A stretch of 40,892 nt of DNA, taken from the NCBI GenBank assembly GCA_900317515.1, contig ONHA01000025.1, positions 1 to 40,892 on the forward strand, written 5' to 3'. Both the position numbers and the translations under genes were made by a program. Positions 710 through 40,891 of the stretch are shown piece by piece (positions within the stretch are counted from its first letter, which is position 1; every line of letters starts with the position of its first letter). Below the pieces are notes generated by a model, which saw only the letters and a program-made list of their open reading frames with translations, did no database searches and had not been told where the DNA came from. Source of the DNA: an uncultured Eubacteriales bacterium (lineage in GTDB: Bacteria; Bacillota; Clostridia; Lachnospirales; Lachnospiraceae).

Positions 710-1477
710 TTACTCGTCCTCCCGCACAAGCGTCCCCAGGGCCGAGAGCGCGTCGCTCCCCGGGATGCGCTGCTCGTGCTCGGCCATATGGGCCTCCAGC
801 GCCCGGGACCACTGAACGGTCTTCCCGTACTCGGAGAGGATGTTGCAGACCTTGTTGAAATCCTCCGGCGTGTGTCCGCTCTGGTGGATCACAAGCCGGT
901 ATTCGCCGTTCCTCCGCATCCGGTAGAGGACGTTGTCGCCGGCGTAGAACCCGCTGAGGCCGGCCGCGGCGCGGATCACGTCGTCCAGGGTGGAAAATGA
1001 AAACACCTTCACCAGATCGACATCCTGCTCTTCCTTCTTTTTCTTCTCCGGCTCCCTGATCTCCTTCGGCTCTTCCTGGCCTCTCCGCTTCGCGTTCGCC
1101 TTCTTCTTCGACTCGTAGATCCGGTGAATCGCATCGATGATGTCGTCCGCCCCGGAGACATCCGCGATCTTCTCATCCTCGTGTGTCAGCGGCTCGGTGA
1201 AGCGGGAGAAGCGGGTGTCGAGCTCTTCCGGGTCCTCCGTCTTGGAGATGATCAGCACGATCCCGTCATCCGCAAACGGAACCGCCTCGATCATGATCGG
1301 GACATTTTCCGCCGAGAAGCCAAACTTTCTGTAAGCCTCCTCCATCATATCCCGAAACAGTTTTCTCGCTTTTTCCGTCCCGTAGGCGAGCTCATGGAGG
1401 CGGATCTTGCGCTCCGCAAGGTCTGCCATCGTGAGCGTGCAGCGGATCTGGTCGTCGTTCAGTTTCTCTATCTTCAT
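710..1477 (-). CDS. mecA: MecA-family adaptor protein
   Basis: About 255 residues. The N-terminal block MKIEKLNDDQIRC, followed by LHELAYGTEKARKLFRDMMEEA, matches the MecA substrate-binding domain. A charged Lys/Glu linker near residues 135-155 leads to a C-terminal domain containing RNGEYRLVIH, the ClpC-binding part of this family. MecA proteins hand substrates to the ClpCP protease in the cytoplasm and in Bacillus control competence and other unstable proteins. I chose ATG 1475-1477 because GGGGGCT lies five bases upstream; an in-frame ATG at 1489 overlaps that ribosome site. A good promoter lies at 1506-1534. There is no neighbouring clpC or competence gene, so the substrates cannot be guessed. 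Confidence 0.85.
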   Translation of the reverse strand: MKIEKLNDDQIRCTLTMADLAERKIRLHELAYGTEKARKLFRDMMEEAYRKFGFSAENVPIMIEAVPFADDGIVLIISKTEDPEELDTRFSRFTEPLTHEDEKIADVSGADDIIDAIHRIYESKKKANAKRRGQEEPKEIREPEKKKKEEQDVDLVKVFSFSTLDDVIRAAAGLSGFYAGDNVLYRMRRNGEYRLVIHQSGHTPEDFNKVCNILSEYGKTVQWSRALEAHMAEHEQRIPGSDALSALGTLVREDE

Positions 1478-1505
1478 AAAAGCCCCCATACCCTGTTTTA
1501 TCGTG

Positions 1506-1534
1506 ATTATATCGTAATCCTTTCACCATGTAAA
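1506..1534 (-). promoter_or_regulatory. mecA promoter
   Basis: TTTACA (complement of 1529-1534) and TATAAT (complement of 1506-1511) have 17-base spacing and lie just upstream of the mecA ribosome binding site. Confidence 0.7.
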
Positions 1535-1607
1535 CAGGCAAGAAATACAATTTATTAGTCAAATCTAACTAAATGTACCGCATTTGGCACACATTTTTTT
1601 AAGATTT

Positions 1608-1640
1608 GTGTTGGCTAACACCTAATATGCGGGATAGAAT
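1608..1640 (+). promoter_or_regulatory. Ferredoxin promoter with overlapping inverted repeat
   Basis: TTGGCT (1611-1616) and TAGAAT (1635-1640) are spaced by 18 bases. A perfect inverted repeat GTGTT-GGCT-AACAC (1608-1621) covers the -35 box and could be an operator. The repeat is not a full match to any regulator site I know. Confidence 0.45.
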
Positions 1641-1699
1641 AAGTTTGTAAAAGAAATGTATATTCTTGTTTCTTCACAATATAAAGGAGGTAATTTACT

Positions 1700-1873
1700 A
1701 TGGCATATGTTATTTCTGATGAGTGCGTAAGCTGCGGAACTTGCGAGGCTGAGTGCCCGGTTGGTGCTATCGCTCAGGGCGAGGAGCATTACGAGATCGA
1801 TGCTGATGCATGCCTTGACTGCGGAACCTGCGCAGGTGTCTGCCCGACTGGTGCTATCAGCCCGGCTGAATGA
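1700..1873 (+). CDS. 2[4Fe-4S] ferredoxin, clostridial type
   Basis: A complete 57-residue protein, the usual size for clostridial ferredoxins. Two CxxCxxCxxxC cluster motifs, each followed by Pro, are at Cys9, 12, 15, 19 and Cys38, 41, 44, 48, so two [4Fe-4S] clusters are expected. It would carry low-potential electrons in the cytoplasm between fermentative oxidoreductases such as pyruvate:ferredoxin oxidoreductase, hydrogenase or Rnf (family knowledge). AAAGGAGGT lies nine bases before the ATG. Codon choice differs from its neighbours (GCT, GGT and ATC rather than extreme GC3), which fits a highly expressed gene. It is monocistronic, with its own promoter and a strong terminator. Confidence 0.95.
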   Translation: MAYVISDECVSCGTCEAECPVGAIAQGEEHYEIDADACLDCGTCAGVCPTGAISPAE

Positions 1874-4213: not shown

Positions 4214-5410
4214 TCAGGCGATGCGGATCCTCTTGATAACTTTTTCGGAGGCCGCTTCCTCAAACGCCTTTTCCGTCATAACTCCGGTCACAAATCCGAA
4301 CTCACCCGAAAGAGACGGGAGACACACCGGCGTGATCTCGCCGAAGGCCGCTTTCGCCTCTTCCTCAGTTCCGGCAAAACGCACGAAAAATGCATGTCTC
4401 ACATCGTCAAGAGGCATGAGCTCCATCTCCTCGGCCTTCCAGTCGGACGCAAGTGTGCGGGAAAGATGGCGGGCCGCCGAGATGACGTCCCCCGCGACCG
4501 CGCTGGCGGTCGGCAGAGAGCCTGCCCCGCTTCCGTAGAAGAGCGTATCGCCGACCGCATTGCCGTGCACGGAAACCGCGTTCAGGACGCCGTTCACGTG
4601 GTAGAGCATGTTGTCGCGGTCAACCAGCATGGGAGCGACCATCGCCCACACGCCTTCCTCGGTGCGCCCGGAGGCGGCGAGCAGACGGATTTTCATTTTC
4701 AGAGCTTTTGCGTAGGACATATCGACCGCGTCGATGTTCGTGATGCCTTCGGTGTAGACATTCTTATAGGAAATATGCTTTCCGTAAGCCAACGACGAGA
4801 GGATCGCGATCTTGCGGCAGGCGTCCCAGCCCTCGATATCCGCTTCCGGATGTCTCTCGGCGTAGCCCAGGTCCTGCGCATCTTTCAGCGCATCCGCAAA
4901 TTCCTGTCCCTCATCCATCATCTGGGTGAGGATGTAGTTCGTCGTCCCGTTTAAAATGCCGGCAACGCCGTCGATCTCGTCGGCTGTCAGCGCCGAATCC
5001 AGCACGTGGATGATCGGGATTCCGCCGCCGCAGGAAGCCTCGAAGAGGTAGTTGACGTTCTTTTCCTTCGCGATCTCACGAAGCTCCACACCGTGCTCGG
5101 CCACAAGCTCCTTGTTGGAGGTGCAGACCGATTTCCCTGCGAGGAGAGCCTTCCTGGTAAACTCATAGGAAGGACGAAGTCCGCCCATTGTCTCGACGAC
5201 GATCTTAACTTCCGGATCGTTTAAAATGTCATTGAAATCATGGGTGAGGACCTCCATGACCGGATCCCCCGGGAACTCGCGGAGATCGAGCACGTATTTC
5301 ACCCGGATCTCCTCGCCGACGCGGCCTGTAATCACCTCACGGTTCATCGTGAGAACCTTGAAGACACCTGCGCCGACCGTACCGTAACCCATTATCGCTG
5401 CACTTACCAT
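4214..5410 (-). CDS. hom: Homoserine dehydrogenase
   Basis: A 398-residue enzyme that reduces aspartate semialdehyde to homoserine with NAD(P)H. The N-terminal GYGTVGAGV (residues 8-16) is the Rossmann nucleotide loop. SNKELVAEHG and ASCGGGIPII, then GILNGTTNYIL and GYAERHPEADIEGWDACRK, are hallmark family segments that include the catalytic Asp/Lys region. The start ATG 5408-5410 is preceded only by a weak GAGAGGG; the frame also opens upstream, inside prfB. It begins 22 bases after the prfB stop and is followed by lysC, so the three are probably co-transcribed and the pair feeds threonine/methionine synthesis. A short C-terminal segment resembles the reduced regulatory end of clostridial homologues. 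Confidence 0.95.
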   Translation of the reverse strand: MVSAAIMGYGTVGAGVFKVLTMNREVITGRVGEEIRVKYVLDLREFPGDPVMEVLTHDFNDILNDPEVKIVVETMGGLRPSYEFTRKALLAGKSVCTSNKELVAEHGVELREIAKEKNVNYLFEASCGGGIPIIHVLDSALTADEIDGVAGILNGTTNYILTQMMDEGQEFADALKDAQDLGYAERHPEADIEGWDACRKIAILSSLAYGKHISYKNVYTEGITNIDAVDMSYAKALKMKIRLLAASGRTEEGVWAMVAPMLVDRDNMLYHVNGVLNAVSVHGNAVGDTLFYGSGAGSLPTASAVAGDVISAARHLSRTLASDWKAEEMELMPLDDVRHAFFVRFAGTEEEAKAAFGEITPVCLPSLSGEFGFVTGVMTEKAFEEAASEKVIKRIRIA

Positions 5411-6742: not shown

Positions 6743-9700
6743 TCAGGGACACGCAATCGCCTCGCCGAGCGCAAACGACCAGATGAGTTTCTCCCTCACT
6801 CTCTTCCCGGTGACCCTCGTAAGAGCCTCCTCGTAGGAGTCAAGCTGCACCTTGTAGCGCGCGATCAGCTCCTCCGCGGTCTCCACCCGGTCGGTCTTGT
6901 AATCCACCAGCACGATCTCATCGCCCTCATAAAAGAACGCGTCGATGATCCCCTGCACAAGGATCTCCTCATCCGCCGGATAGTCCTCCCGGATCTCCGA
7001 AGCCGGCACGAAGAGCACAAACGGCTGCTCCCTCATAAGCTTCTTCTCCTTCGCCGCGCGGGCAAAGCGCTTCCCGAGCGGACTTACAATGAAATCCGCC
7101 ACCGTGCCATGCCGCACCAGCGCAGCCTCCGAAGCTTCCATTTTTCCCTCCCCGACAAACCGGTCGATCTCCGCTCCGACGAGCGCGGTGACGCGCTTCC
7201 CTGCGTTTTCGCCCGACGGGAGCGGTTCGAACCGCGTGTAGTCAAGAAGCTCCATGACCCGGTGGAAGGCCGTGCCACGCTCCGCGCCGCCCGCCGTTTT
7301 TTCTTCCTCCCCGGCCGCGCCGCTAAGCCTCCTCATAAACGCCGGGACAACCGACACGGGCTCCGCCTCCGGGAACGCAAATTCCGCCTCTTCCTCCTCC
7401 ATATGAGCCTTTTTGAGCTCGGAGACCGATACTTTGGCCGGCACGTTGTCGCGGCCGCCGTATGGATAGACAAAGGAGAAGCGCTCATCGAGGATCGCAC
7501 GCATTTTTTCGTCGTAGGAATGTTCGGGGTCTGCATTTTTAAGCGCCGCAAGAGCATTTCTGCCGGCGTCGCGTCCCGAGACCGCGGAGAGCGCAAGCTC
7601 CGAGGGCAGCGTCTCCCGGATCACGAAGGGCTCCCGCTCTCCCGCCGCCGCTGCCCGCCGGATCGCCCGGTCGGCCGCCGGCAGAAGCAGCGCAAACGGG
7701 GTCTGGGCGTGCAGGACAAAGTTGTCCGGGAAATGAAGTTCCCGAAGCGGCATGTCCGTATGGATGAGTGCCTTAAGCTTCTCCGCATCCTTCACGGTCC
7801 CGGTCAAGATCAGCTTCTCCTTCGCACGCGTGAGCGCGACGTAGAGGACGCGAAGCTCCTCCCCCAGGGACTCCTTCTGCATTTTCTTCTTGATTGCTTC
7901 CTTTTTAATGGTCGGCGTTCTGGTCCTGTGTACATAATCGACGTAATCCGAGGCAAGCCCCATCTTCTCGTCGACCAGAAGAGAGGCATTGATATCCTGC
8001 CGGTTGAAGCTCTTTCCGAGTCCGGCCACGAACACGATCGGGTACTCAAGTCCCTTCGACTTGTGAATGCTGATGATGCGGACCGCATCGGCGTTCTCGG
8101 ACGCCACGGAGGCCGTCCCGAAATCCACCTCGTATTTGCCCAGGCTCTCGATGTAGCGGACAAAGCTCGAAAGACCCGCGTAGGAAGTGCTCTCGTAGGC
8201 GATGGCCTTCTCCTCCAGCATCTTGAGGTTGGCCGCGCGCTGCGCGCCTCCCGGCAGACTCCCCGCATAGGCAAGATACCCGGTGCCCTCCAGCACCATA
8301 TAGACGAGCTCATGGACCGGCGTGTAGGGCACGGCCGCCCTCACACTGTCGTAAAATGCAAAAAACTCCGTGAGCTTTCCCCGCGTCTCCTCCCTGACTA
8401 GGCCTCCCGCCTCTCCGGCTTCCGCAGCCCGCGCGCACTCATACATCGTCTTCCAGCCGGCCTCCTTACTTAAGGAGGGAGAGCCGAACACGAGCCTTAC
8501 ATTGGCGAGCTCCTCGGCCGTAAGGCCCGCGATCGGTGACTTCAGCACCGCCGCAAACGGCAGATCCTGCTCGGGATTGTCCAGGATGCGCAGGTAATTG
8601 AGCACCGTGATCACCTCGAGCGCCGTAAAATACCCTGTGCCCGAGGATGAAAATGCAGGAATCCCGCAGCTCTCCAGCACCTCCGTAAATATGTCCGACC
8701 ATCCGGTCATTGTCCGAAGCAGGATGACGACATCCCTGTAGGAAGCCGGCCGGGATTCCCCGGTTTTCGGATCATACACAGGCTCTTTTCCGACAATGGA
8801 TCTGATCCGGTCCGCGATGGCCCGCACCTCGATCTCCCGGGACGCACGGCTCCCCGTATCGTCGAGCACCGCATTGCCCTCGGAATCCTCCTCCCCGCTC
8901 AAAACAGGAAGAATCTCCGTGACACACCGCCCGCCGGCATCCGGATAATCCGCACCGGTGATCAGTTTTGCGTCCTCATCGTAGTCGACGCCGCCGACGC
9001 CGCTCACCATGAACTGCTCAAAGAGCAGGTTGGCGGAGCGCAGCACCTCATCCCGGCTGCGGAAGTTCCGCGCCAGGTCGATCCTGATGCCGTTAAGACC
9101 GTCCGCCTTTCGCGGCGTTTCCCCGTACTTCGTGTAGTCACGGTATTTTTTCATGAAGAGGTCCGGGCGGGCATGGCGGAAGGCATAGATGCTCTGCTTC
9201 ACGTCGCCGACGCAGAAATAGTTGTCCTCCCCGTCCTCGATCCGGCTGACCGCCGTCAGGATCTCCTCCTGGAGATCGTTGCTGTCCTGGTACTCGTCGC
9301 ACATGACTTCCCGGAAATGAGCCGCCAGCTCCCTGGCCGCCGCCGTCCGTCCGACCGCATCATCCTTCCCTCTGAGGATCTCCAGCGCAAAGTGCTCGAG
9401 ATCCGCGAAATCGACGACCTTCTTGTCTCTTTTCTTCTTCGCGAACCGCCTCATGAACTCCTCAGCCATGTCGATGAGGGTGCCGAGGATCGGTTCGTTC
9501 TTCTGCATGAAAATGAAAAACTTTTCCGCCGGCGCCGCATAGACACCCTCTTTAAGCTCCTCGAGCAGTTCTTTCATTTCCGCCCTGCGGTTCTTAAAGA
9601 CCTCCCGAAGGTCCGGATTCTCGCCCAGCGAGGGCTTTTTGCCCGTAAGTCTCACAAACTTCCGGTCGCGCAGCATCGCGTAGCGGCGGTCCGGATCGGT

Positions 9701-10498
9701 TTCCCGGAGAATATCCTCAAAGAGCCCGATGTCGTCCGCCGCACAGGAAAGATAGGCCGAGGGGCCGTCCGCCTGCATGGCCTGTTCTTCATTGGTCTTC
9801 GCCTTCACAATGCCTTCTCTGAGGATCCCGTCGGCATCGGAGAGAAGCTGCCGGTACCAGGCAGAAGCCTGCATCTCCGCAAGGGTTCCTGCACGGTTCT
9901 CCCTTCTGCATTTTTCAAGCCATACAAACGGCCGGGGCTGGCTCTCCGCCGCGTCAAATACCTTCAGGATGTACTCCTCCAGGAGTTTTTCGGATTTCCC
10001 GGTCGCGACGGACTCCACCAGCGCGTAAAATCCTGCTCTCTTCTCCTCATCCGCCTCCGCGTAGGCGTCTTCCAGCAGCTCCTGCATCACGTCGGCTTTC
10101 ATGAGCGCGAGCTCTCCCTGCTCCGCGACCCGAAAGCCCGGCTCCAGTTCCGTAAGATAACCGTAGGCGTGCACGAGGTAGGAGCAGAAGCCGTCGATCG
10201 TCGTGATCTTCGCGTTATGGATGAGCTGGGTCTGCCTGTGCAGATGCTCGTTGTCCGGGTCTTCCTCCAGCGCGTCGGCAATCGCCCGCGCGATCCGCTC
10301 CTTCATCTCGCCGGCCGCCGCCTTCGTGAATGTCACGATCAGCAGCTCATCGATGTTCATCGGATGTTCCGGGTCCAGAAGAAGGGCCAGGATGCGGGCG
10401 ACAAGAACCGCCGTCTTGCCGCTGCCGGCCGAGGCCGCAACGAGGATATTGGCAGCGCGCGTGTCGATGACGCGCTTTTGTTCATCTGTCCACTTCAT
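6743..10498 (-). CDS. addA: AddA subunit of the AddAB helicase-nuclease
   Basis: A 1251-residue UvrD-like helicase/nuclease that, with AddB, resects double-strand breaks and starts RecA-dependent repair. Walker A AGSGKT is at residues 24-29. Helicase motifs include DEYQDSN (motif II), GDVKQSIYAFRHARPDLF (motif III), NFRS (motif IV), IHKSKGLEYPIVFV (motif V) and VALTRAKEKL (motif VI). The C-terminal RecB-type nuclease carries GIIDAFF and VLVDYKTDR, the Asp and Lys of the active site. The length is normal for the family. Its ATG overlaps the addB stop as ATGA, so the subunits are translationally coupled. It is the last gene of rmuC-addB-addA, and a weak hairpin separates it from prfB. Confidence 0.97.
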   Translation of the reverse strand: MKWTDEQKRVIDTRAANILVAASAGSGKTAVLVARILALLLDPEHPMNIDELLIVTFTKAAAGEMKERIARAIADALEEDPDNEHLHRQTQLIHNAKITTIDGFCSYLVHAYGYLTELEPGFRVAEQGELALMKADVMQELLEDAYAEADEEKRAGFYALVESVATGKSEKLLEEYILKVFDAAESQPRPFVWLEKCRRENRAGTLAEMQASAWYRQLLSDADGILREGIVKAKTNEEQAMQADGPSAYLSCAADDIGLFEDILRETDPDRRYAMLRDRKFVRLTGKKPSLGENPDLREVFKNRRAEMKELLEELKEGVYAAPAEKFFIFMQKNEPILGTLIDMAEEFMRRFAKKKRDKKVVDFADLEHFALEILRGKDDAVGRTAAARELAAHFREVMCDEYQDSNDLQEEILTAVSRIEDGEDNYFCVGDVKQSIYAFRHARPDLFMKKYRDYTKYGETPRKADGLNGIRIDLARNFRSRDEVLRSANLLFEQFMVSGVGGVDYDEDAKLITGADYPDAGGRCVTEILPVLSGEEDSEGNAVLDDTGSRASREIEVRAIADRIRSIVGKEPVYDPKTGESRPASYRDVVILLRTMTGWSDIFTEVLESCGIPAFSSSGTGYFTALEVITVLNYLRILDNPEQDLPFAAVLKSPIAGLTAEELANVRLVFGSPSLSKEAGWKTMYECARAAEAGEAGGLVREETRGKLTEFFAFYDSVRAAVPYTPVHELVYMVLEGTGYLAYAGSLPGGAQRAANLKMLEEKAIAYESTSYAGLSSFVRYIESLGKYEVDFGTASVASENADAVRIISIHKSKGLEYPIVFVAGLGKSFNRQDINASLLVDEKMGLASDYVDYVHRTRTPTIKKEAIKKKMQKESLGEELRVLYVALTRAKEKLILTGTVKDAEKLKALIHTDMPLRELHFPDNFVLHAQTPFALLLPAADRAIRRAAAAGEREPFVIRETLPSELALSAVSGRDAGRNALAALKNADPEHSYDEKMRAILDERFSFVYPYGGRDNVPAKVSVSELKKAHMEEEEAEFAFPEAEPVSVVPAFMRRLSGAAGEEEKTAGGAERGTAFHRVMELLDYTRFEPLPSGENAGKRVTALVGAEIDRFVGEGKMEASEAALVRHGTVADFIVSPLGKRFARAAKEKKLMREQPFVLFVPASEIREDYPADEEILVQGIIDAFFYEGDEIVLVDYKTDRVETAEELIARYKVQLDSYEEALTRVTGKRVREKLIWSFALGEAIACP

Positions 10499-21737: not shown

Positions 21738-21749
21738 TTTCCGCCCCTT

Positions 21750-23099: not shown

Positions 23100-23109
23100 G
23101 TCAACGCCC

Positions 23110-29510: not shown

Positions 29511-29945
29511 TCAAACCCTGATGAACCCGAACTGCTTGAGATCCAGATGTCCGGTTCCGCTGAAAATGAAATAAAGCGGGCGCACGCCGCTCATGCCCTC
29601 GACCGGGATGAGCTCGCAGGTCCAGCTGTCCTTCCGGAGCTGGAAGATCGCCTCGCCGGCCGCACGGCGGCCGCGCGGCGTGTGGGAGACACGGACCGAG
29701 CCGTCGAACTCGCCGCGGATCTCAAGAAGGATCATGGAGACATTTTCATAGACAAATTTATCGAATCCGAGGACCGTGCCGTTCGTGATGTCCGTCACGA
29801 AGGAGACGTTTCCCTCCTCCGCCGCGCGGGTCTTTCGGTCGGCGTCCGTGTCCTCCGGGCAGGTGATGTAGGTGGCGGTCACCGCCGGGTGGCAGCCCTC
29901 CGCCGTGAGCGGGGTTTCATTCTGGATATTTACTTCCTTTTCCAT
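29511..29945 (-). CDS. Stand-alone CBM6-like carbohydrate-binding domain
   Basis: A 144-residue protein without signal peptide or membrane helix. The pattern VSFVTDITNGTVLGFDKFVYE, then ILLEIRGEFDGSVRV, then the ending GVRPLYFIFSGTGHLDLKQFGF, matches the jelly-roll domain found at the C-terminus of GH43-type xylosidases (CBM6). Such domains bind polysaccharide ends, normally as part of an enzyme. Here nothing else is attached, and the frame is closed on both sides by stops. AAAGGAG lies five bases before the ATG, so it is a real small gene rather than a fragment. It leads the mtaD-ahcY-yihY group, perhaps by chance. Confidence 0.65.
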   Translation of the reverse strand: MEKEVNIQNETPLTAEGCHPAVTATYITCPEDTDADRKTRAAEEGNVSFVTDITNGTVLGFDKFVYENVSMILLEIRGEFDGSVRVSHTPRGRRAAGEAIFQLRKDSWTCELIPVEGMSGVRPLYFIFSGTGHLDLKQFGFIRV

Positions 29946-31015: not shown

Positions 31016-31594
31016 TCACAGCCTTATCCTCTCCACCGTCCTATGCCGCCCATCCTTCGCTTCATACACCCTCACCTCGCAGTTGTGAGGCTTCGGCCGC
31101 CAGGCGAGCCCGTTCTTTTTGTCCTCCAGGTACCCCGAGAGCGCCCGCATGATCCCGCCGTGGCAGGCGATGAGGACGGTCCCGTAGTTCTTCTCCTCGA
31201 GCTCCCTCAAAAATGAAGAGCTCCTCTCCCGAAGCGACGCCGTCGTCTCGACGCTCTTCGGCGCCGGAAAGATCTCCGGCAGCGTCCAGTAGAGCGTCAT
31301 CGCCGGCCCCATGAGATAATACTTTTTCTTCTCGTAGACCCCGAAATCCGCCTCGATGATCCGCGGATCCGTGATCACCTCCGACGGGTCCACCCCGCCG
31401 ATGATCGCCCCGGTCATGACCGCCCGGTTCAGCGGGCTCGCGTACACTGCATCGAAATGTACATCCCCGATTTTCTCCCGCATCGCCCGGGCCTGCGCAA
31501 GCCCGGTCTCATTTAAGGGCTCGTCCGTGAGTCCCTGCATCAGCCGCGCCTTATTTAAATTTGTCTGCCCGTGCCGGGTAAGATAGATAATCAT
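31016..31594 (-). CDS. Histidine phosphatase family protein (phosphoglycerate mutase-like)
   Basis: A 192-residue cytoplasmic phosphatase. MIIYLTRHGQTNLNKARLMQ carries the RHG motif whose His is phosphorylated during catalysis; YASPLNRAVMTG and IACHGGIMRAL supply the second Arg and His. The size fits broad phosphatases of the CobC/GpmB type; the substrate is unknown. ATG 31592-31594 follows CGGAGG by six bases. It begins 14 bases after the second ABC gene, so it is the last member of trmH-ABC-ABC-phosphatase. Confidence 0.88.
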   Translation of the reverse strand: MIIYLTRHGQTNLNKARLMQGLTDEPLNETGLAQARAMREKIGDVHFDAVYASPLNRAVMTGAIIGGVDPSEVITDPRIIEADFGVYEKKKYYLMGPAMTLYWTLPEIFPAPKSVETTASLRERSSSFLRELEEKNYGTVLIACHGGIMRALSGYLEDKKNGLAWRPKPHNCEVRVYEAKDGRHRTVERIRL

Positions 31595-31608: not shown

Positions 31609-33378
31609 TCATTCAAACTGGGCATTGTAGAGCCTGTAGTAATACCCCTTATTCGCCATCAGCGACCTGTGGGTCCCCTGCTCCACGACGTCTCCCTTGT
31701 CGAGCACCAGGATCCAGTCCGCATACTCGATCGTCGAGAGCCTGTGGGCAATCACGAAGCAGGTCCGTCCCGCCATCAGCTTCCGCATGGCCTTCTGGAT
31801 CTCCCGCTCGGTCGCCGTGTCGACGTTCGAGGTCGCCTCGTCGAGGATCAGGATCCGCGCGTCATAGAGCATCGCCCGCGCAATCGTGAGGAGCTGCTTC
31901 TGCCCCTTCGAGATGTTGCCGCCGTCCTCCGAGATTACCGTCTGATACCCGTCCGGCAGCCGCATGATAAATGAGTGAATGTGCGCCGCCTTCGCGGCCG
32001 CCACGACCTCCTCCATCGTTGCGTTTTCCTTCCCGTAGGCGATATTGTCGAAGATTGTCCCGTTGAACACCCAGGTGTCCTGCAGCACCATCGCGTAGGC
32101 TCCCCGGACGCTCTTCCTCGTGCAGTCCCGGATCTCTTCATTTTCAATGAAAATGAACCCCTCGTCCGCGTCGTAGAACCGCATCAGAAGATTGATGATC
32201 GTGGTCTTGCCGGCCCCCGTGTGGCCGACGATCGCGACCATTTTTCCGGCCTCCGCCCTGAAGGAGAGGTCACGGATGACCGTCCGTTCCTTCTCGTAGC
32301 CGAATTTCACGTGCTCCATGCGGACATTTCCGTCGATATCCCGAAACGTCTTCGCGCCGGTCTTATCAGGCGTCTCCTCCGCCTCGTCGAGGAGGTTGAA
32401 GACGCGCTCCGCGGCCGCGAGCGCCGAGAAGAGCTCGTTGATGATGTTCGCGATCTCGTTGATCGGCCCCGAAAATTTCCTCGAGTAGAGCACAAACGAC
32501 GAGATATCCCCCAGCGTGATCAGCTCGTACATGTAAAGAAGGGAGCCCAGAATCGCGATGATGGAGAGAGAGACGTTGTTGATCGAGCCCATCGTCGGGC
32601 CGATCGTCACCGCATGGTACTGGGCATCGTAGTAGCCGTCGGCGGCATTTTTGTTGATCTCCCGGAACTGCTCCTCGACATTGTCCTCGTAGGCGTAAGC
32701 CTGGATCGTCGTCTGCCCGGACATCATCTCCTCGACGAAGCCGTTCATGATCCCGTAGTTCTTCGACCGCATGACAAACCTAGGCTGCGTGATCCGCCTC
32801 ATCTGCGTCGTGTAGAGCACCGCGACCGGGATCGTGAAGAGCACAACCGCCGCGAGCGGCACCGAGATGTAGACCATCATAAAAAATGCACCCGCAACCG
32901 TCACCGTGCTGGTCAGGATCTGCGTGACGTCCGCCGCCATGCAGGTCCCGATCACGTCGATGTCGTAGGAGACGCGGCTTATGATGTCGCCGGCCTGATT
33001 TTTGTCGAAGAAGCTGACGGGCAGGCGGGTGAGCTTATGAAAGACATCGTTTCTCATTTTCCGCATGAGGTGCCGCGAGACCGCCGTCATGGTCACGCTG
33101 ATGAGCACCGCGAGGATCGACGAGGCCCCGTAGCAGAGGAGCATCCGGACCGCGTAATATTTTACCGTTTCAAGGTCCACTTTGCCGGGGCCGGCCGCCG
33201 CGGCGTTGATTGCCCGCCCCGCAAGCGAGGGCCCGAGCAGCGAGAGCACGTTCGAGATAATACATAAAATGAAAACCGCCGCCATGATTCCGACAAAGCT
33301 CTTAAAATAGGCGAGAACCCGCACGAGCGTCCCCCGGGTATCCTTCGGTTTGGTCATAATGGAGTCGCGTCTTGCCAT
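31609..33378 (-). CDS. ABC exporter half-transporter, consensus-ATPase subunit
   Basis: A 589-residue protein: six-helix ABC exporter domain followed by an ATPase domain. Walker A is GHTGAGKTT and Walker B is ILILDEATSNVD with the catalytic Glu, but the signature is altered to SKGQKQ in place of SGGQ. Its start overlaps the stop of the upstream ABC gene as TGATG. Together they match heterodimeric exporters of the BmrCD/TM287-288 type, where this subunit supplies the good Walker B and the poor signature. The role is export of drugs, lipids or peptides, unspecified by sequence. Confidence 0.92.
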   Translation of the reverse strand: MARRDSIMTKPKDTRGTLVRVLAYFKSFVGIMAAVFILCIISNVLSLLGPSLAGRAINAAAAGPGKVDLETVKYYAVRMLLCYGASSILAVLISVTMTAVSRHLMRKMRNDVFHKLTRLPVSFFDKNQAGDIISRVSYDIDVIGTCMAADVTQILTSTVTVAGAFFMMVYISVPLAAVVLFTIPVAVLYTTQMRRITQPRFVMRSKNYGIMNGFVEEMMSGQTTIQAYAYEDNVEEQFREINKNAADGYYDAQYHAVTIGPTMGSINNVSLSIIAILGSLLYMYELITLGDISSFVLYSRKFSGPINEIANIINELFSALAAAERVFNLLDEAEETPDKTGAKTFRDIDGNVRMEHVKFGYEKERTVIRDLSFRAEAGKMVAIVGHTGAGKTTIINLLMRFYDADEGFIFIENEEIRDCTRKSVRGAYAMVLQDTWVFNGTIFDNIAYGKENATMEEVVAAAKAAHIHSFIMRLPDGYQTVISEDGGNISKGQKQLLTIARAMLYDARILILDEATSNVDTATEREIQKAMRKLMAGRTCFVIAHRLSTIEYADWILVLDKGDVVEQGTHRSLMANKGYYYRLYNAQFE

Positions 33379-35141
33379 CAGCCCACCTCCCCCATCTGGG
33401 ACCTTGCGATGTCCCGGTATTCCGGACAGGTGCGAAGGAGCTCCCCGTGGGTGCCCTTCCCGATGATCTTCCCGTCGGCGAGCACAAGAATCTCATCGAG
33501 CCCCATGAGGGAGCTCACCCGCTGGGCGATCACGATCTCCGTCGTCCCCGCATACTCCTCCCGCACTGCCTTCCGGACTTCCGCGTCCGTGCGGTAGTCG
33601 AGGGCGCTCGAGGCGTCGTCAAAGATGAGGATCGGCGGCCGCGCAGCCAGCGCGCGGGTGATCAGGATCCGCTGCTTCTGCCCGCCGGAGAAATTCGCCC
33701 CGTGGATCTCGCTTTTGTGCTCGAACCCCTCCCTGTAGTTGGCGATGAATTCGGCTGCCTGCGCGCTTTTTGCGGCGGTTTTCATTTCCTCATCGGAGAT
33801 ATCCCGCCCGAGGGCGATGTTCGTCCGAATCGTGTCCGCGAAGATCGCATCGTTCTGCAAAGTCACCCCGAAAAGCCGGTGCAGCTCGTCCTTCTCATAG
33901 GTCCGGACATCCCGCCCGCCGATGAAGATTTTCCCCTCCGCGGGGTCGTAAAACCGCATGAGGAGCCTCACAATCGTCGACTTGCCGGACCCGGTTGCCC
34001 CGATGATACCGAGCGAACCTCCCTTCTTCACGGAAAATGAGATGTCCGAAAGCGCATCCTCCCGCTCCTCGCCGGCAAACTTCTCCCGGCTCTTTATGCT
34101 CCCCTCCTCGGGGTCATAGCGGAAGGTCACATGGTCGAAAATGATATATCCGTCCTCACCCGTCCGCGGCGCCTCTGCCTCCGGGAGCACGCTGAGCGTC
34201 TCCTCCTCGTCCACCACATCCGCGATGCGGTTCGCGGAGGCATTGGCCTTGGACATCAGCATGAAGATGCGGTTTAATCCCATGACGCCCATGAGGATCA
34301 TGTTGAAATAGGTGAGAAATGCCAGAATAACGCCCGGCTCCGTGACGCCCGCGTTCACCCGCTGCGCACCGAACCAGACGATCGCCGTGAGGCCGATATT
34401 TAAGGAAAATGAAACAAACGGCCCCGGCAGCGACATCGTAATGCCGGCCCGTATATCGCTTTTCACAGCCTCGTCGTTGGCCTGGCTGAACCTCGCCTTC
34501 TCGTGCTCCTCCCGGGAGAGGGCCTTCACGACGCGGACGCCGGTGATATTTTCCCGCATGATGCGGACGATCACGTCCATCTTCTTCTGAACCGTGTCGT
34601 AGAGCGGGATCCCGTAGCGGGAGACCAGGACGACAAAGGCGATCATGATCGGCGCGGTCACGCAGAGGATCATCGCAAGCCCCCGGTCCATCCGGAGAGT
34701 CACGAAAATGCCCCCGACCAGCATGATCGGCGCCCGGATCCCGATGGTCTGGACGGACTGAATGAAGTTCTGGACGTTGTAGGTGTCGGAGGTCATCCGG
34801 GAGATGATCGAAGGAAGCGTAAATTTGTCCACCTGGCTGCTCGAGAGGTTGAGGGACCTGTGGAAGAGGTCCCGGCGGATGTCCTCGGCCGCGTCCCGGG
34901 CGACCTTCACGGAGAGCCGGTTCGCGCCCACATTGAGGAACCGCACGATGGCTGCAAGCATGAGCATGATGGCGCCCCAGACAAGGACATTCCGGACCTC
35001 CTTCGTCGGGACGACATGGTCGATCATGTGCTCGAGGACATAGGGAATCAGGAGCTCCATCCCGGTCCCGACGAGCTTCACCGCCATCGTGCCCGTGATG
35101 GCCCTTATGTATTTCTTCAGATACGAGAAAATGAAACCCAT
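33378..35141 (-). CDS. ABC exporter half-transporter, degenerate-Walker-B subunit
   Basis: A 587-residue partner of the downstream ABC gene. The N-terminal six-helix domain begins FSYLKKYIRAITGTMAVKLVG. Walker A is GATGSGKST, the signature is the consensus FSGGQKQR, and Walker B is ILIFDDASSALD, with Asp where the catalytic Glu should be. Thus one ATP site of the dimer (this Walker B with the partner's SKGQ) is degenerate and the other is complete. GAAAGG lies seven bases before the ATG. It starts 23 bases after trmH. Confidence 0.93.
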   Translation of the reverse strand: MGFIFSYLKKYIRAITGTMAVKLVGTGMELLIPYVLEHMIDHVVPTKEVRNVLVWGAIMLMLAAIVRFLNVGANRLSVKVARDAAEDIRRDLFHRSLNLSSSQVDKFTLPSIISRMTSDTYNVQNFIQSVQTIGIRAPIMLVGGIFVTLRMDRGLAMILCVTAPIMIAFVVLVSRYGIPLYDTVQKKMDVIVRIMRENITGVRVVKALSREEHEKARFSQANDEAVKSDIRAGITMSLPGPFVSFSLNIGLTAIVWFGAQRVNAGVTEPGVILAFLTYFNMILMGVMGLNRIFMLMSKANASANRIADVVDEEETLSVLPEAEAPRTGEDGYIIFDHVTFRYDPEEGSIKSREKFAGEEREDALSDISFSVKKGGSLGIIGATGSGKSTIVRLLMRFYDPAEGKIFIGGRDVRTYEKDELHRLFGVTLQNDAIFADTIRTNIALGRDISDEEMKTAAKSAQAAEFIANYREGFEHKSEIHGANFSGGQKQRILITRALAARPPILIFDDASSALDYRTDAEVRKAVREEYAGTTEIVIAQRVSSLMGLDEILVLADGKIIGKGTHGELLRTCPEYRDIARSQMGEVG

Positions 35142-35164: not shown

Positions 35165-35980
35165 TTACCGCATCTCCCAGAACGCCACCGCCGCAGCCGC
35201 CGCGACATTGAGCGAGTCCACGCCTCCCCTCATCGGGATCTTCACCGTGTAATCGCACCCCTCGATCGTTACGGCATTAAGCCCGTCTCCCTCCGTCCCC
35301 AGGATGAGCGCGAGCTTCTCCTCCTTTTTGAGTGCCGGATCGTCGATCGACACCGAGTCATCCTTAAGCGCAAGCGCCGCCGAGGCAAAGCCCAGCGCTC
35401 TGAGCTTCATAAGGGCTTTTTCCGGCCATTCATTTTCCGGGAGATAGGTCCAGGGCACCTGAAAGACCGTCCCCATGGAGACCCGGGCTGCCCGCCGGTA
35501 GTAAGGATCCGCCGAGTCCGTCGTGATGAGCACCGCGTCCACATTAAGAGCTGCCGCCGCCCGGAAGATCGCCCCGACATTGGTCGGGTTCACGACGTGC
35601 TCGAGGATCGCGATGCGCCGCTTATCCGCCGCGAGCGCCTCCCAGGAGGGCCGTTCGGGCCTTCTCATGGCCGCCAGCATCCCGCGCGTTAAGACGAAGC
35701 CGGTCAGCTGCCGGAAGACCTCCTCCGAGGCGGTGTAGACCGGGACATCCGGGCATTCTGCGAGCACTTCCTCCGCCTCCGCGGTGAGCTGCCGCTCTTC
35801 TATCAAAAATGAAACCGCCCCGCACCCGGCCGCAAGCGCCCGCCCGATCACCTTCGGGCTCTCCGCGATGAAGAGGCCCGGTCCGGGCTCATTGATGTGG
35901 AAGAGCTGGTTTTCGGAGAGCCTCGCGTAGATGTCGAGCTCCGGACTTGCGATGTCGGTTACGGGGATAAAGCTGTTCAT
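35165..35980 (-). CDS. TrmH-family (SpoU) RNA 2'-O-methyltransferase
   Basis: A 271-residue SPOUT methyltransferase that methylates ribose in tRNA or rRNA with SAM. The C-terminal domain shows the three family motifs: NPTNVGAIFRAAAAL (motif 1), LILGTEGDGL (motif 2) and IPMRGGVDSLNVAAAAAVAFWE (motif 3), which form the knot and the SAM site. The N-terminal 100 residues form a substrate-binding part. ATG 35978-35980 follows AGGTGAGG closely. The target nucleotide cannot be told. It is the first gene of the trmH-ABC-ABC-phosphatase group; 40 bases separate it from the ATPase gene upstream. Confidence 0.9.
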   Translation of the reverse strand: MNSFIPVTDIASPELDIYARLSENQLFHINEPGPGLFIAESPKVIGRALAAGCGAVSFLIEERQLTAEAEEVLAECPDVPVYTASEEVFRQLTGFVLTRGMLAAMRRPERPSWEALAADKRRIAILEHVVNPTNVGAIFRAAAALNVDAVLITTDSADPYYRRAARVSMGTVFQVPWTYLPENEWPEKALMKLRALGFASAALALKDDSVSIDDPALKKEEKLALILGTEGDGLNAVTIEGCDYTVKIPMRGGVDSLNVAAAAAVAFWEMR

Positions 35981-36020
35981 TTTCCTCACCTGTTTCTTAA
36001 AATGCTTTTCCTGCATGAAC

Positions 36021-37481
36021 TTATTCTTTAAAGAGATCATCCAGTGTAATGGTCTGCACAAAATCGCTGTAATACTCATTTTGTTTCAGTCCATACGTTG
36101 TAATAAGCGTATTATGGATTGCTGCCCGTTTGGGAACCTTCTCCAAAAGGAGATTCTTTCTTCTCACAAGCGTGAAATGATAGTCCCTGTTGACGGCGAA
36201 TTCATCATTGCAGAACTTGACCTCACACATGTTCACAATATTATCTTTTCGTTCAATTATCAGATCGATCTGAGTTCCGGAAACCTCTTCACTTCCCTTT
36301 TTAGACCATAGGGTCTCATTTGTTGACACACCGCTGATACCGAGCGCTGCCTTTATTTGTCTGATATGATTAAAGCAGACATTTTCAAATGCATATCCTC
36401 TCCATGCTGCAGCGCTTCCCGTATCAGAAATATTCGTCCAATCGGTTGTCCTCCTTTTCGCCTTCTCTCCGACAAAGCGAAGGAAGAAGAGGCAAAAAGG
36501 ATCGGTCAGTTTGTAATATTCCTCTCTTTTGCTGCTCCCGAAAGAACAGTATTTCATTATGAAAGACCCTGAAATCAATGCCTTTAACTGATTGGAAAAC
36601 TCTCCGCTGTTTGCAATTCCTGTTTTTTGAAGCAGCTCCTGTCTTGTGAGACCCATATTTTTCAGACTGAGCGCTTCGATAATTGCTTTCATAACCTCGG
36701 GGTTGACAAAAAGTGAGGAAAAGAGCCGATCATATTCATCATTCAGGGGCGCCTGTTCCGCAAAAAACATCTTATCTATGTTCTGGGACAGACTCAGCCT
36801 CCGGTCAAAATATCTCAGGTAATACGGAATTCCTCCTACCATCATATATGATTGTACAATATCATAACGTGACATTATGACATCATTTGCGGCGAAAAAT
36901 TTCTCACATTCGCTTAAGGTAAAAGGACTCAGTTTGATCTGACACGTCACCCGATCATAGAGACCGCCATGATTATTGATAACCTTATCCAGAATCCATG
37001 AACTTGAGCTGCCGCAGACAATGACCATAATGTTGTGCCGGTGACACGCCCATCCGTTCCAAAACGCTTCAAAGCCGGTCATAAATCCGGACCTTGGTGT
37101 GTCCAGCCATTGTATTTCATCGAGGAACACTACCTGTCTGGTATGACCATCATCCAGTTCCTGCAGCATGTCCTCCAGCATATAAAATGCATCCAGCCAT
37201 GACTCCGGCGTTTTTATTTTTCCTGCCCCCTGCTGTATAAGTGATCTCGCAAAGTGTTTCAGCTGATCCTTCATTCTGCTTTTTCTGGCTGCCTCTGCAG
37301 AATACCTGTCATCAATCGGGGATAATCCCGCATGCCTGAAAGTGATTTTTCCCGCAAAAACCTCATCAATGAGAAATGTTTTCCCAACGCGCCTTCTGCC
37401 ATACAGTGCGACCAGTTCAGGTGCATCGCCTGCGTATAATTCCGTAAGCTTTCTGATCTCTTTTTCTCGTCCTATGAGCAT
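36021..37481 (-). CDS. ATPase with C-terminal nuclease-like domain (AAA/DUF234 type)
   Basis: A 486-residue protein. The N-terminal MLIGREKEIRKL, Walker A YGRRRVGKT and Walker B VVFLDEIQWLD, followed by the sensor segment IMVIVCGSSSSWI, match the archaeal-type STAND ATPases. A winged-helix region (GLTRQELLQKTGIANSGEFSN) leads to a C-terminal PD-(D/E)xK-like domain with GTQIDLIIERKDNIVNMCEVKF. Role unknown; relatives are scattered accessory genes, often in mobile regions. Base composition is visibly much lower in GC than both neighbours and codon use differs (ATA, AAA and TTT are common), a sign of horizontal transfer. ATG 37479-37481 has AAAGGGG upstream, and the promoter at 37541-37569 rules out the longer GTG start. 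Confidence 0.85.
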   Translation of the reverse strand: MLIGREKEIRKLTELYAGDAPELVALYGRRRVGKTFLIDEVFAGKITFRHAGLSPIDDRYSAEAARKSRMKDQLKHFARSLIQQGAGKIKTPESWLDAFYMLEDMLQELDDGHTRQVVFLDEIQWLDTPRSGFMTGFEAFWNGWACHRHNIMVIVCGSSSSWILDKVINNHGGLYDRVTCQIKLSPFTLSECEKFFAANDVIMSRYDIVQSYMMVGGIPYYLRYFDRRLSLSQNIDKMFFAEQAPLNDEYDRLFSSLFVNPEVMKAIIEALSLKNMGLTRQELLQKTGIANSGEFSNQLKALISGSFIMKYCSFGSSKREEYYKLTDPFCLFFLRFVGEKAKRRTTDWTNISDTGSAAAWRGYAFENVCFNHIRQIKAALGISGVSTNETLWSKKGSEEVSGTQIDLIIERKDNIVNMCEVKFCNDEFAVNRDYHFTLVRRKNLLLEKVPKRAAIHNTLITTYGLKQNEYYSDFVQTITLDDLFKE

Positions 37482-37792: not shown

Positions 37793-38848
37793 ATGTCCCC
37801 CCTCACCTACCTCATCGTCGGCTCCGGCTGGAGAGCCGAGTTCTACGGCCGCATCGCCGCCGCTTACCCCGGCATTTTCAGGGCCGTCTACTACTGCCGC
37901 TCCGAGGAGAAGGCCGCTCTCATGCGCGCCAGAACCGGCGCCTACGCCTTCACCTCAAAGGAAGCCTGCCTGACCATGAACCCGGACTTCGTCGTGACCG
38001 CCGTCGACAAGGCCCACAGCGCGGATGTCGCGATCGAGTGGGCCCGCCGGGGCTTTCCGGTCGCCTGCGAGACCCCCGCAGCTCCCACCTTCGAAGGCCT
38101 CCAGACTCTCCGATCCTGCAAGTTATCGGACGGCAGCCCCGCCAGAATCACCTGCATGGAGCAGTACCACCGCTACCCGATCCTCATGGCCGGCCTCGCC
38201 GCAATCGACTCCGGCGCCATCGGCGAGCCTTACTCCGCCTACCTCTCGGCCGCCCACGACTACCATGGCTTCAGCCTCATCAAAAAAATGCTGAAAACCG
38301 AAGGCGAGGGCTATGTCCTCCGCGGGCAGAAAATTAAGAGCCCCGTCACCGTGACCGACTCACGGAACAGCGCTCTCTATGACGGTGCTTTAAAGACGGC
38401 CGACCGCGACATCCTCCACATTACCTTCGACTCCGGCAAGACCGCGGTCTACGATTTTTCGGGCACACAGTACCACTCCTTCATCCGGTCGCGCAGCCTG
38501 ATTGTCCGCGGCTCCCGCGGCGAGTGGAACGGCCGGACGATCCTGTGCCTTAATTCTGAAAATGAACCCACCCGCATCTCTCTCATGCCGGACATCCCGG
38601 CACGCTACCGCTGCCTCGACAACACTTCTCTCCGCGACCTCCGGAAGGTCTGGCAAAATGAGCTCACGCTCGAGACCGCCCAGGACGAGTTTGCGATCGC
38701 CTCGATGCTGCTCGACATGGAGGATTTCATCGCAGGAGGTCCGGCTCCCTACACGCTTACAAGCGCGCTCGAGGATTCCCTCTTCTGGCTGAAGTCCCGG
38801 GAGGCCCTTGCCGCTCCCTGGAGCGAGGTCAGGGTCGAGTCTGTATAA
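37793..38848 (+). CDS. Gfo/Idh/MocA-family oxidoreductase
   Basis: A 351-residue NAD(P)-dependent sugar-type dehydrogenase. LIVGSGWRAEFYGRIAAA is the Rossmann loop, DFVVTAVDKAHSADVAIEWA follows, and FPVACETPAAP holds the place of the usual EKP motif, with Thr in place of the catalytic Lys. MEQYHRYPILMAGLAAIDSGAIGEPY is the start of the second domain. Substrates of this family are sugars, inositols and their derivatives; none can be assigned, and loss of the Lys leaves activity uncertain. AAAAGGAGG precedes the ATG. It is monocistronic, ending at a GGGGACGGTTCT palindrome. Confidence 0.85.
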   Translation: MSPLTYLIVGSGWRAEFYGRIAAAYPGIFRAVYYCRSEEKAALMRARTGAYAFTSKEACLTMNPDFVVTAVDKAHSADVAIEWARRGFPVACETPAAPTFEGLQTLRSCKLSDGSPARITCMEQYHRYPILMAGLAAIDSGAIGEPYSAYLSAAHDYHGFSLIKKMLKTEGEGYVLRGQKIKSPVTVTDSRNSALYDGALKTADRDILHITFDSGKTAVYDFSGTQYHSFIRSRSLIVRGSRGEWNGRTILCLNSENEPTRISLMPDIPARYRCLDNTSLRDLRKVWQNELTLETAQDEFAIASMLLDMEDFIAGGPAPYTLTSALEDSLFWLKSREALAAPWSEVRVESV

Positions 38849-38851
38849 GAC

Positions 38852-38894
38852 GCAGATGGGGACGGTTCTTCGCGGAGAACCGTCCCTCCCCTGC
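38852..38894. repeat. GGGGACGGTTCT palindrome between convergent genes
   Basis: GGGGACGGTTCT and AGAACCGTCCC form a near-perfect 11-bp stem with a short CGCGG loop, flanked by GCAG/CTGC. It probably terminates both the oxidoreductase and the esterase transcripts. Confidence 0.8.
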
Positions 38895-38900
38895 GAAACC

Positions 38901-40391
38901 TCACCTCATCACAAACGCCGCTGCCTTCCGGATCCAGCCCTCCGCAGGCGTGTCGGTCGCCGGCCCGCCCCCGTGGTCGACGCCCCGGAAAACCGTGCAC
39001 TCGTATGGCACTCCTGCCTTCTTCAGCGCCCGGACCATCCGGCGGGTATTCTCCGTCGGCACCGTCATATCCATATCCCCTGCCCAGATAAAGGTCGGGG
39101 GATATTCTTCTGTCACCTGAAGATCCACGCTCGCCGCCCGCTCATCCTCCGGAGAAGGAGCGCTTCCCAGCAGGTTGTCGTGCGTACCCATATGGGTAAT
39201 CGCCGGATCCATGCTGATGACCGGGTAAATGAGCACCAGCGACCCCGGCCTCGGCAGGCCGTACTTCTTCCAGCCCATCGACTCGATCTCCCTGACCGCC
39301 CGCGCCGCGTCGTCCTGCGGCCCCGGGAAACGCGCCTTATCCTTCACACGATAATACAAAATGAAAACCGAGATTCCCATCTTGTTGAGTTCCCTCGCGT
39401 AGGGAACGCCCTCGATGAAGCTGCACACGACCGTATAACCGCCCCCGGGGATCACCAGCGCAAACGGGTGCTTCTTTCCGTCCCTGATCACGAAGCGGGT
39501 GTCGAGGCGGTATTCATTTTTCGCGGCGGTCAGATCGGCAAATATCTGTCTCTTCACCATGTCCGGCGTTGACCCGCCCTTCTTCACAAAGCGCTTCCCC
39601 GAGAACGGAACGCTTCTTACGAGGAACTCCCGGAGCGCCGTCGCCGCCTTCTCATCATACGCGCGGGAGAATCCGTGGCCCGCACCCTCGATGATCACCA
39701 GCTCCGCATTCCGGCTGCCCGCCTTCTGCGACAGCCGGTACAACTCAAATGCCCGCCGCGCGTAATTAAGACGCACAATTTTATCCTCCGTCCCGTGAAC
39801 GATGAGCACCGGACCCGTGTAGCCCTTGAGAAGCTCATAGGGATCCTTGTCGACGACCGAAGCCGCGTAATCCCGCCCGAGCGTCATCGGCCCGCACTTA
39901 ATCTCCGCAGGAATATCGGCCGGGTCAAAGTGCGCGAACATCATCCGTCCTTTCCGCGCATCATCCGGGATGCAGAGCGCCGGGAAGAACAGGACCAGCT
40001 TCTCCACTTTCTCCGGGTTTCCCGCCGCGGTCATGCCGCTCACGAATCCTCCCTGCGAGCAGCCCATAAGGATGACTTTGCCGCACCCGCAGTCCCGAAG
40101 AGCGTGCGCCGTCACCGCCTCAAGGTCCCGGACCTCCGTGAAGACCGTCATTTTCCTCGTGTCGCCGTCGCTTCGGCCGCCCAGGCCGCCTCCGCAGAAG
40201 TCGAACGTGTAAACCGTATACCCCGCTTTCGCGAGCAGCTCCGCGTAAGGCGCGACTCCCTGCTCATTTCCCATGAAGCCGTGGCTTACGATGACCGGGC
40301 TGTTCCCATTCGCCCGCTCCGGGACAAATTTGGTCCCCCGAATCGTCAGTTCCTCTCTCTTCGTCTCAAACGATTCTCTTGTAAACTTCAT
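38901..40391 (-). CDS. Two-domain alpha/beta hydrolase (esterase), second domain defective
   Basis: A 496-residue cytoplasmic protein. Domain 1 (about 1-275) is a complete feruloyl/cinnamoyl-esterase-like hydrolase: VSHGFMGNEQG, nucleophile GCSQGG, acid HGTEDKIV, base GAGHGFS. Domain 2 (about 290-496) follows the xylan-esterase/BD-FAE pattern: LVIPGGGYTVVCSFIEG, WAGDMDMTVPTENTRR and GVDHGG. However, the stretch that should carry GxSxGG is missing, as the sequence goes from AARAVREIES straight to MGWKKYGLPRPGSLVLIYPV, in frame. The second domain therefore probably lacks activity. ATG 40389-40391 follows GAGAGGAG. It starts 11 bases after a GH127-like gene, so a role in removing acyl groups from plant polysaccharide is inferred. 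Confidence 0.82.
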   Translation of the reverse strand: MKFTRESFETKREELTIRGTKFVPERANGNSPVIVSHGFMGNEQGVAPYAELLAKAGYTVYTFDFCGGGLGGRSDGDTRKMTVFTEVRDLEAVTAHALRDCGCGKVILMGCSQGGFVSGMTAAGNPEKVEKLVLFFPALCIPDDARKGRMMFAHFDPADIPAEIKCGPMTLGRDYAASVVDKDPYELLKGYTGPVLIVHGTEDKIVRLNYARRAFELYRLSQKAGSRNAELVIIEGAGHGFSRAYDEKAATALREFLVRSVPFSGKRFVKKGGSTPDMVKRQIFADLTAAKNEYRLDTRFVIRDGKKHPFALVIPGGGYTVVCSFIEGVPYARELNKMGISVFILYYRVKDKARFPGPQDDAARAVREIESMGWKKYGLPRPGSLVLIYPVISMDPAITHMGTHDNLLGSAPSPEDERAASVDLQVTEEYPPTFIWAGDMDMTVPTENTRRMVRALKKAGVPYECTVFRGVDHGGGPATDTPAEGWIRKAAAFVMR

Positions 40392-40402
40392 GCGCACTCC
40401 TC

Positions 40403-40891
40403 TCACCGCCAGTACCAGTATATGCCGTAACGGCTCTCCACGATCTCATTATAGGGCCGGAATCTGTGCCCGTCCAGCACAAAAGCGAGCCCATCCCCTG
40501 TATCCCGTTTCATATATTTTCCCGGATTTTCCGCCAATTCGGAAAATGAAACCCCCTCCGGCAGCCCGAGATACTCCTCCTTCAAAACGCCCGTAAAGCT
40601 CCTCCCGTACTCAAGAGAAAGCCTCACCGCCCCGGGATGCACGATTTTCCATGCCGGTGCGACCACCTCGATGCCGGCTTCCTCGAGCTCTTTCTCATCC
40701 TCCGTCAAAAGCTCTGCCGCGAGCACCAGCGGCCCGTACATGAACCCGAGCACGTTCTCCGCATCCGGAAGCCCCACGGCCCGAAGCTTCGCCGGACAGT
40801 TGATCACAAAAGAAGCCTCCTCACCTGCTTTCACTTCACAGCAGGCCGCAAGATACGTGTCCCCGGCCGCAGCACAAAACGTCTTCCCGTC
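40403..40891 (-). CDS. GH127-like (DUF1680) beta-L-arabinofuranosidase, C-terminal part (partial)
   Basis: The frame runs off the right edge; about 162 C-terminal residues are seen. CPAKLRAVGLPDAENVLGFMYGPLVLAAEL matches the C-terminal beta-sandwich of GH127/DUF1680 enzymes, and the ending DGHRFRPYNEIVESRYGIYWYW is typical. Members remove L-arabinofuranose from plant glycans. The catalytic Glu and Cys cluster would lie outside the window. It is followed after 11 bases by the two-domain esterase, suggesting one plant-polysaccharide operon. Confidence 0.8.
   Translation of the reverse strand, partial: DGKTFCAAAGDTYLAACCEVKAGEEASFVINCPAKLRAVGLPDAENVLGFMYGPLVLAAELLTEDEKELEEAGIEVVAPAWKIVHPGAVRLSLEYGRSFTGVLKEEYLGLPEGVSFSELAENPGKYMKRDTGDGLAFVLDGHRFRPYNEIVESRYGIYWYWR

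Follow-up and report, generated by a model that had tools for sequence, protein, structure and literature searches.

A genome-wide DNA word with species dialects in a genus of Lachnospiraceae: a putative DNA-uptake sequence

Introduction

What is the role of a short DNA word that recurs far beyond chance on both strands of a bacterial genome? This question is raised by the window analyzed here, the whole stretch of 40,892 bases (58% GC) of contig ONHA01000025.1 from an uncultured Eubacteriales bacterium of the Lachnospiraceae (GCA_900317515.1), in which an earlier note had described the octamer AAAATGAA as strongly over-represented on both strands. The window is part of a genome, termed G000, of 2.72 Mb in 79 contigs (94% complete). 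The nearest named genomes are the bins UBA3785 and RUI141, filed as Lachnospiraceae; we infer a ruminant-gut habitat, goat and sheep gut being named for further relatives.

Genome-wide words are known from bacteria that take up DNA selectively. The DNA-uptake sequences (DUS) of Neisseriaceae (PMC3630211) and the uptake signal sequences (USS) of Pasteurellaceae (PMC12616744) form dialects that keep a constant core and follow phylogeny, inverted pairs of both act as terminators (PMC1852404) and USS are biased towards gene termini (PMC2346458). No uptake sequence reported for Clostridia or Lachnospiraceae was found in searches of an open-access library, most matches being screened as list entries.

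In this study, the word was counted against shuffled sequences, its motif was described and its forms were compared among relatives. It is a real, genome-wide and dialect-forming DNA word; a system of uptake sequences with species dialects, similar to the DUS of Neisseriaceae, is put forward as a putative explanation, with the chances for and against it judged about equal.

Results

Abundance of the word in the window and the genome

The window contains 33 copies of AAAATGAA (19 forward and 14 reverse), against a mean of 1.06 and a maximum of 4 over 100 dinucleotide shuffles. For the 29 copies within genes, synonymous-codon shuffles gave a mean of 4.08 and a maximum of 9 over 500 shuffles, so that no shuffle of either kind came near the observed count. 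All 25 positions listed in the earlier note were correct within 0-3 bases, eight further copies having been missed, and a sister form, AAAATGCA, which it did not mention, occurs 12 times (0.91 expected). AAAATGAA and its overlapping extensions head the enriched 8-mers and are still among the top 9- and 10-mers; the other leading 9- and 10-mers derive mostly from an unrelated repeat, GGGGACGGTTCT. The longer form GAAAATGAAAACC reflects a real tendency: numbering from where the octamer begins, G is favoured at -2/-1, A at +8/+9 and C at +11.

The excess extends well beyond the window: G000 contains 1,393 copies of AAAATGAA (717 + 676) and 57 of the word read backwards. The reversed word, AAGTAAAA, contains TAA and is therefore not a neutral control; reliance is consequently placed on shuffles and between-genome contrasts, and less on the raw ratio. 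A sample of 631 kb (23% of the genome), with stretches picked by contig number rather than content and with our own gene calls based on open reading frames (ORFs), contained 335 copies: 153 in genes in sense orientation, 110 in genes in antisense orientation, and 72 that lie between genes or cross a gene boundary. The 263 genic copies compare with 31.6 after synonymous codon shuffling within genes and with 40.1 (standard deviation 4.2, maximum 49 in 20 shuffles) when neighbouring bases were also held. The word fills all five open frames, the sole empty frame being the one that would contain TGA. Its presence on both strands and in every frame open to it, together with the excess over synonymous shuffles, bears out the view that this is a DNA-level signal and not a peptide repeat.

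Anatomy of the motif

Against a second-order model (372 kb), AAAATGAA is 14-fold enriched. Single-base variants in its first six bases range from 0.5- to 6.2-fold, and the runner-up at position 7 is C, which gives AAAATGCA (8.8-fold). Both forms together, AAAATG[AC]A, occur once per 1,211 bp. The spacing is near random, with a coefficient of variation of 1.09 for AAAATGAA and 0.97 with AAAATGCA added. The suggestion that the word is denser after 20 kb holds numerically for the window, whose halves contain 8 and 25 copies (p=0.005, uncorrected), but since spacing in the larger sample is near random this step is read as local scatter. With the first A of AAATG as reference, 496 sites of G000 show preferences for T (-7/-6), G (-3/-2), A (+7/+8) and C (+9/+10), and base preferences die out by about 20 bases from the core. 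The motif is thus discontinuous and degenerate, covering roughly 18 positions.

Dialects among relatives

In whole-genome counts with the reversed word as control, AAAATGAA ranges over 36 genomes of the same genus from near background (G006, 158 versus 89) to 1,382 versus 228 (G018). It is 19- to 28-fold over control in G032, G016, G036 and G034 and reaches 1,130 versus 56 in G061. The form GAAAATGAA was counted at 788 versus 10 in G000 and was never above about 10-fold over control in 145 other genomes of the order, none of them listed under the genus of the window. Species poor in AAAATGAA are often rich in another word that shares the AAATG core. One such word is TGCAAATG, with counts against control of 892/63 in G001, 639/25 in G003, 955/33 in G017, 906/35 in G025, 637/60 in G020, 440/43 in G022 and 562/26 in G028, more weakly in G006 (249 versus 19) and G029 (139 versus 7), and 78 versus 33 in G000. 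Another is GAAAATGG, with 1,171/71 in G014 and 686/53 in G019 (129/38 in G000), and CG[AC]AAATG is the word of G023 in a 100-kb sample. Repeat words of its own, ACACGGGGT and GGGGTCTGAC, were also seen in the G023 sample.

Words were also chosen in one half of the genes of a genome and counted in the other half against the synonymous shuffle, using 74-183 kb of genes outside G000. An AAATG word was upheld in six of 12 genomes (G000, G016, G026, G015, G023 and G025). In G012, G021 and G035 the dialect consensus was weak in samples of 89-120 kb, and no dialect is claimed. G026 (samples L178-L187) also carries some palindromic or related words, GGATATCC, TTCCGGAA and TTCGGAAA, at 2.3- to 2.5-fold over the synonymous shuffle in the held-out half.

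T(T/C) at -7/-6 is also preferred in G016, G014, G015 and G023, and C is preferred downstream in the TGCAAATG group; these shared flank preferences would suit a single protein family reading every dialect. The relation to phylogeny was traced on a tree of AddB from 30 genomes, 27 of which were labelled with a word at a threshold of 10-fold over control. Six of the seven genomes richest in TGCAAATG (G001, G003, G017, G020, G022 and G025) cluster together, with a Shimodaira-Hasegawa-like approximate likelihood-ratio (SH-aLRT) value of 83 and G028 outside. G000, G032 and G061, all with AAAATGAA, form a group (SH-aLRT 100), and AAAATGAA is also found on the separate branches of G016/G009 and, more weakly, of G036, G018 and G005/G035. 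The labels need at least seven changes on this tree, and congruence of dialect and phylogeny is therefore partial. AddB itself is strongly diverged in the genus, mostly 40-63% identical outside G032.

Strand, gene class and conservation of sites

Strands were scored by local GC skew, excluding stretches below 10 kb or with a skew below 0.02, which left 452 of the 496 sites of G000. These divide into 219 leading and 233 lagging, without leading-strand bias, compared with 185 leading and 97 lagging for a purine-rich word counted as a control in this DNA and 26:5 for Chi in 200 kb of Escherichia coli K-12 under the same rule (31 of 46 sites left by the skew cut). Five of the seven other genomes scored (G016, G025, G020, G023 and G015) have no significant strand bias.

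Site density is lower in AT-rich genes: those below 54% GC contain 20 sites in 43.2 kb, those above it 366 sites in 494.8 kb (p=0.02), and those below 50% GC three sites in 9.3 kb. Base composition would lead one to expect the reverse. Ten AT-rich genes were inspected; one encodes a transposase and the rest are mostly ordinary genes, so that the evidence for scarcity in foreign DNA is weak.

In the closest relative, G032 (80% identity), 12 of 18 ungapped G000 sites are intact against a background of 0.245-0.267 (p<0.001). The corresponding numbers are three of seven in G016 (background 0.105, p=0.03) and five of 12 in UBA3785 (background 0.28, not significant), a bin possibly not independent of G032. 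When ten relatives, most with another or a weak word, were pooled, two of 28 sites were intact (0.10-0.11, not significant). Flanks are conserved about as much as average, and one of 19 aligned sites met a gap in G032. It would thus seem that sites persist among close relatives and disappear farther off, by substitution rather than insertion.

Competence machinery

G000 encodes DprA and a ComEC with all three domains, and an HHH protein of ComEA size (206-residue frame) lies about 3 kb upstream of ComEC on the same strand. Among 41 genomes of the genus, ComEC was found in 37 and DprA in 39. HHH matches were found in 38, a number that is not a count of ComEA because many of the matches sit in long frames of another protein. 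One secretion ATPase of G000 exceeded the Pfam cut-off (36 of 40 candidates scored); its 411-residue frame matches the profile partially and is probably of the Tad/CpaF type.

Sites and other elements in the window

Forward copies of AAAATGAA lie at 292..299, 994..1001 (within ggAAAATGAAaac), 9510..9517, 11517..11524, 20955..20962, 22093..22100 (immediately past an ORF start at 22090), 22378..22385, 23938..23945, 24803..24810 (where the ATG of the word is a called gene start), 29563..29570, 31210..31217, 32150..32157, 33266..33273, 34406..34413, 35128..35135, 35806..35813, 38559..38566, 39358..39365 and 40543..40550. Reverse copies lie at 4692..4699, 12577..12584, 14966..14973, 18795..18802 (where the ATG may be a gene start), 21321..21328, 21733..21740 (where the ATG is an ORF start), 23926..23933, 24680..24687, 29438..29445, 30531..30538, 32137..32144, 35429..35436, 35976..35983 and 39513..39520. 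Two inverted pairs are formed by 23926..23933 with 23938..23945 and by 32137..32144, within an ABC transporter gene, with 32150..32157 (left and right arms, respectively). The sister form AAAATGCA is found forward at 4387..4394, 8353..8360, 8650..8657, 16212..16219, 25239..25246, 26186..26193, 32883..32890 and 37184..37191, and reverse at 7532..7539, 7878..7885, 9907..9914 and 25796..25803. A radical SAM/B12-binding protein with DUF4080 is encoded at 20163-21737.

The repeat GGGGACGGTTCT (15 window copies at one mismatch or fewer versus 0.26 expected) builds elements resembling repetitive extragenic palindromes (REP) at 17751-17821, 23057-23202, 30924-30996 and 38858-38887, several of them in inverted pairs. 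One of these elements includes a perfectly complementary 40-nt hairpin at 23110-23202. The GGGGACGGTTCT stretch has many short matches in G032.

Discussion

Among the roles suggested in the earlier note, a DNA-uptake sequence fits best because of the density of the word, its strand neutrality, the constant-core dialects, the scarcity in AT-rich genes and the presence of com genes. In the proposed mechanism, a surface competence receptor would prefer DNA with a motif close to TTnnGGAAAATG(A/C)AAACC, and, if uptake occurs in these bacteria as we infer, the preferred DNA would enter via ComEC and recombine into the chromosome. Biased uptake could then spread and maintain the word by molecular drive rather than by ordinary selection, and would confine exchange to kin. 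A shift of receptor specificity in a lineage would change the outer letters while the AAATG core stays, and dialects would result. Since no PilB- or ComGA-like ATPase was seen among the 36 of 40 candidates scored in G000, uptake would need a Tad-type pilus; Tad pili are described as mediating DNA uptake in Liberibacter crescens, with transformation through ComEC (PMC8513845). A broader proposal is advanced more tentatively, at slightly less than an even chance: the genus would have a third, independently evolved uptake-sequence system, comprising at least four AAATG dialects and possibly using a Tad pilus and ComEC. Such a system would be the first among Gram-positive bacteria.

Several observations weigh against an uptake sequence, beginning with the PilB- or ComGA-like ATPase not seen among the candidates scored in G000. 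G023 (94% complete) has a clear dialect and no match to ComEC or HHH; one assembly gap could explain this, because ComEC and the HHH gene adjoin in G000, or the mark could outlive the machinery, or the hypothesis could be wrong. Conversely, G027 has ComEC, DprA and a ComEA-sized HHH match, yet no AAATG dialect was found in this single-contig genome. (A possible unrelated word, ACGGACGG, was counted 21 times versus 6.2 in its held-out gene half; samples L130-L131 and L188-L195.) The half-split test replicated no AAATG word in G012, G014, G020, G021, G027 and G035, although in G014 and G020 a dialect is still indicated by the counts over the whole genome. Two words occur together in G019, which also has TGCAAATG (231 versus 17), and in G028, which also has GAAAATGG (330 versus 40), and the dialects are therefore not sharply exclusive. 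G061 shares the dialect of G000 but is more distant, and one of ten sites is intact there (0.11-0.16, not significant). Genes with and without relatives did not differ clearly in site density, the comparison DNA covering a part of each relative. A mild leading-strand excess was seen in G026 (105:71) and G014 (37:18). A bias to gene termini as in Pasteurellaceae was not found, gene quintiles containing 80, 80, 80, 63 and 49 sites. Inverted close pairs are weakly enriched: 22 of 60 pairs within 200 bp are -+ (p=0.03 versus 1/4), and -+ exceeds +- by 22:14 (p=0.24). A terminator role is disfavoured, the two closest inverted pairs of the window both lying within called genes. Set beside DUS and USS, the word thus has dialects in part, inverted pairs weakly and gene-termini bias not at all; DUS in general are not defined by the last of these.

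The word could instead be a binding site, one per 1-2 kb, of an abundant chromosomal protein of the nucleoid-associated or condensin type whose specificity drifts between species. Strand neutrality, near-random spacing and sites both within and between genes agree with this, and the flank preferences suggest protein-DNA contact across nearly two helical turns. However, density is lower in AT-rich genes, opposite to binding of the H-NS/Rok type, and we know of no nucleoid protein with such dialects; this explanation is considered improbable. Somewhat less credit is given to a Chi-like site that switches AddAB from degradation to recombination. AddA- and AddB-type genes lie side by side in the window (6743-13926), AddB was found in 40 of the 41 genomes of the genus, Chi words are short and over-represented, and the mild strand excess in G026 and G014 points in the same direction. 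Nevertheless, a Chi-like site is disfavoured because G000 lacks strand bias, and a leading-strand reading, whether Chi or FtsK-orienting polar sequence (KOPS), is rejected for this genome (219:233 versus 26:5 for E. coli Chi). In addition, known Chi words are narrower than the motif described here, the dialects differ inside one genus and G027 has AddB without the AAATG word. The putative AddAB Chi of Caulobacter is unevenly spread between strands (PMC5443536), which also speaks against a Chi-like role.

A modification target, or a word whose presence is enforced by a restriction/modification system, is very unlikely. Modification targets can be species-specific, but genomes usually avoid restriction targets instead of accumulating them, and degeneracy over a motif of about 18 positions is atypical. 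An artefact of composition or codon usage, start-codon contexts or remnants of dispersed repeats is refuted as the main cause and retains only a negligible probability. At 40 of the 496 sites an ATG in frame lies no farther than 60 bp from a called start, which is in favour of this reading. However, composition and codon usage are ruled out by the dinucleotide and synonymous shuffles (263 genic copies versus 40), and dispersed repeats are ruled out because the preferences fade within about 20 bases and aligned sites are without insertions or deletions, apart from the single gap in 19; the word of the REP-like GGGGACGGTTCT family is a different one.

If an uptake sequence is indeed present, the origin of uptake words could be studied in a third case, a genus of another phylum with several dialects, which would also bear on the co-evolution of receptor and word and on uptake words as species barriers. 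Even without an uptake receptor, a genome-wide word that changes its form between species of one genus calls for explanation.

Comparison with known systems

The word resembles the Chi sites of RecBCD and AddAB in being a short, over-represented and non-palindromic octamer in a genome with AddAB; it differs in having no leading-strand bias in G000, in its wide flanks and in its change between species of one genus. With the USS of Pasteurellaceae it shares a discontinuous motif of a core with preferred positions, dialects and com genes (PMC12616744, PMC1852404). Its sequence is unrelated to that of USS, inverted pairs are weakly enriched here and the bias to gene termini described for USS (PMC2346458) was not seen. 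From the DUS of Neisseriaceae it differs in sequence and phylum, the present genus belonging to the Clostridia, and its motif is wider and more degenerate; the receptor is the ComP pilin in Neisseriaceae and a postulated one here. Like DUS (PMC3630211), it is found on both strands in more than 1,000 copies per genome, and its dialects preserve a short core, AAATG as against CTG in DUS, and track phylogeny, at least partly in the present genus.

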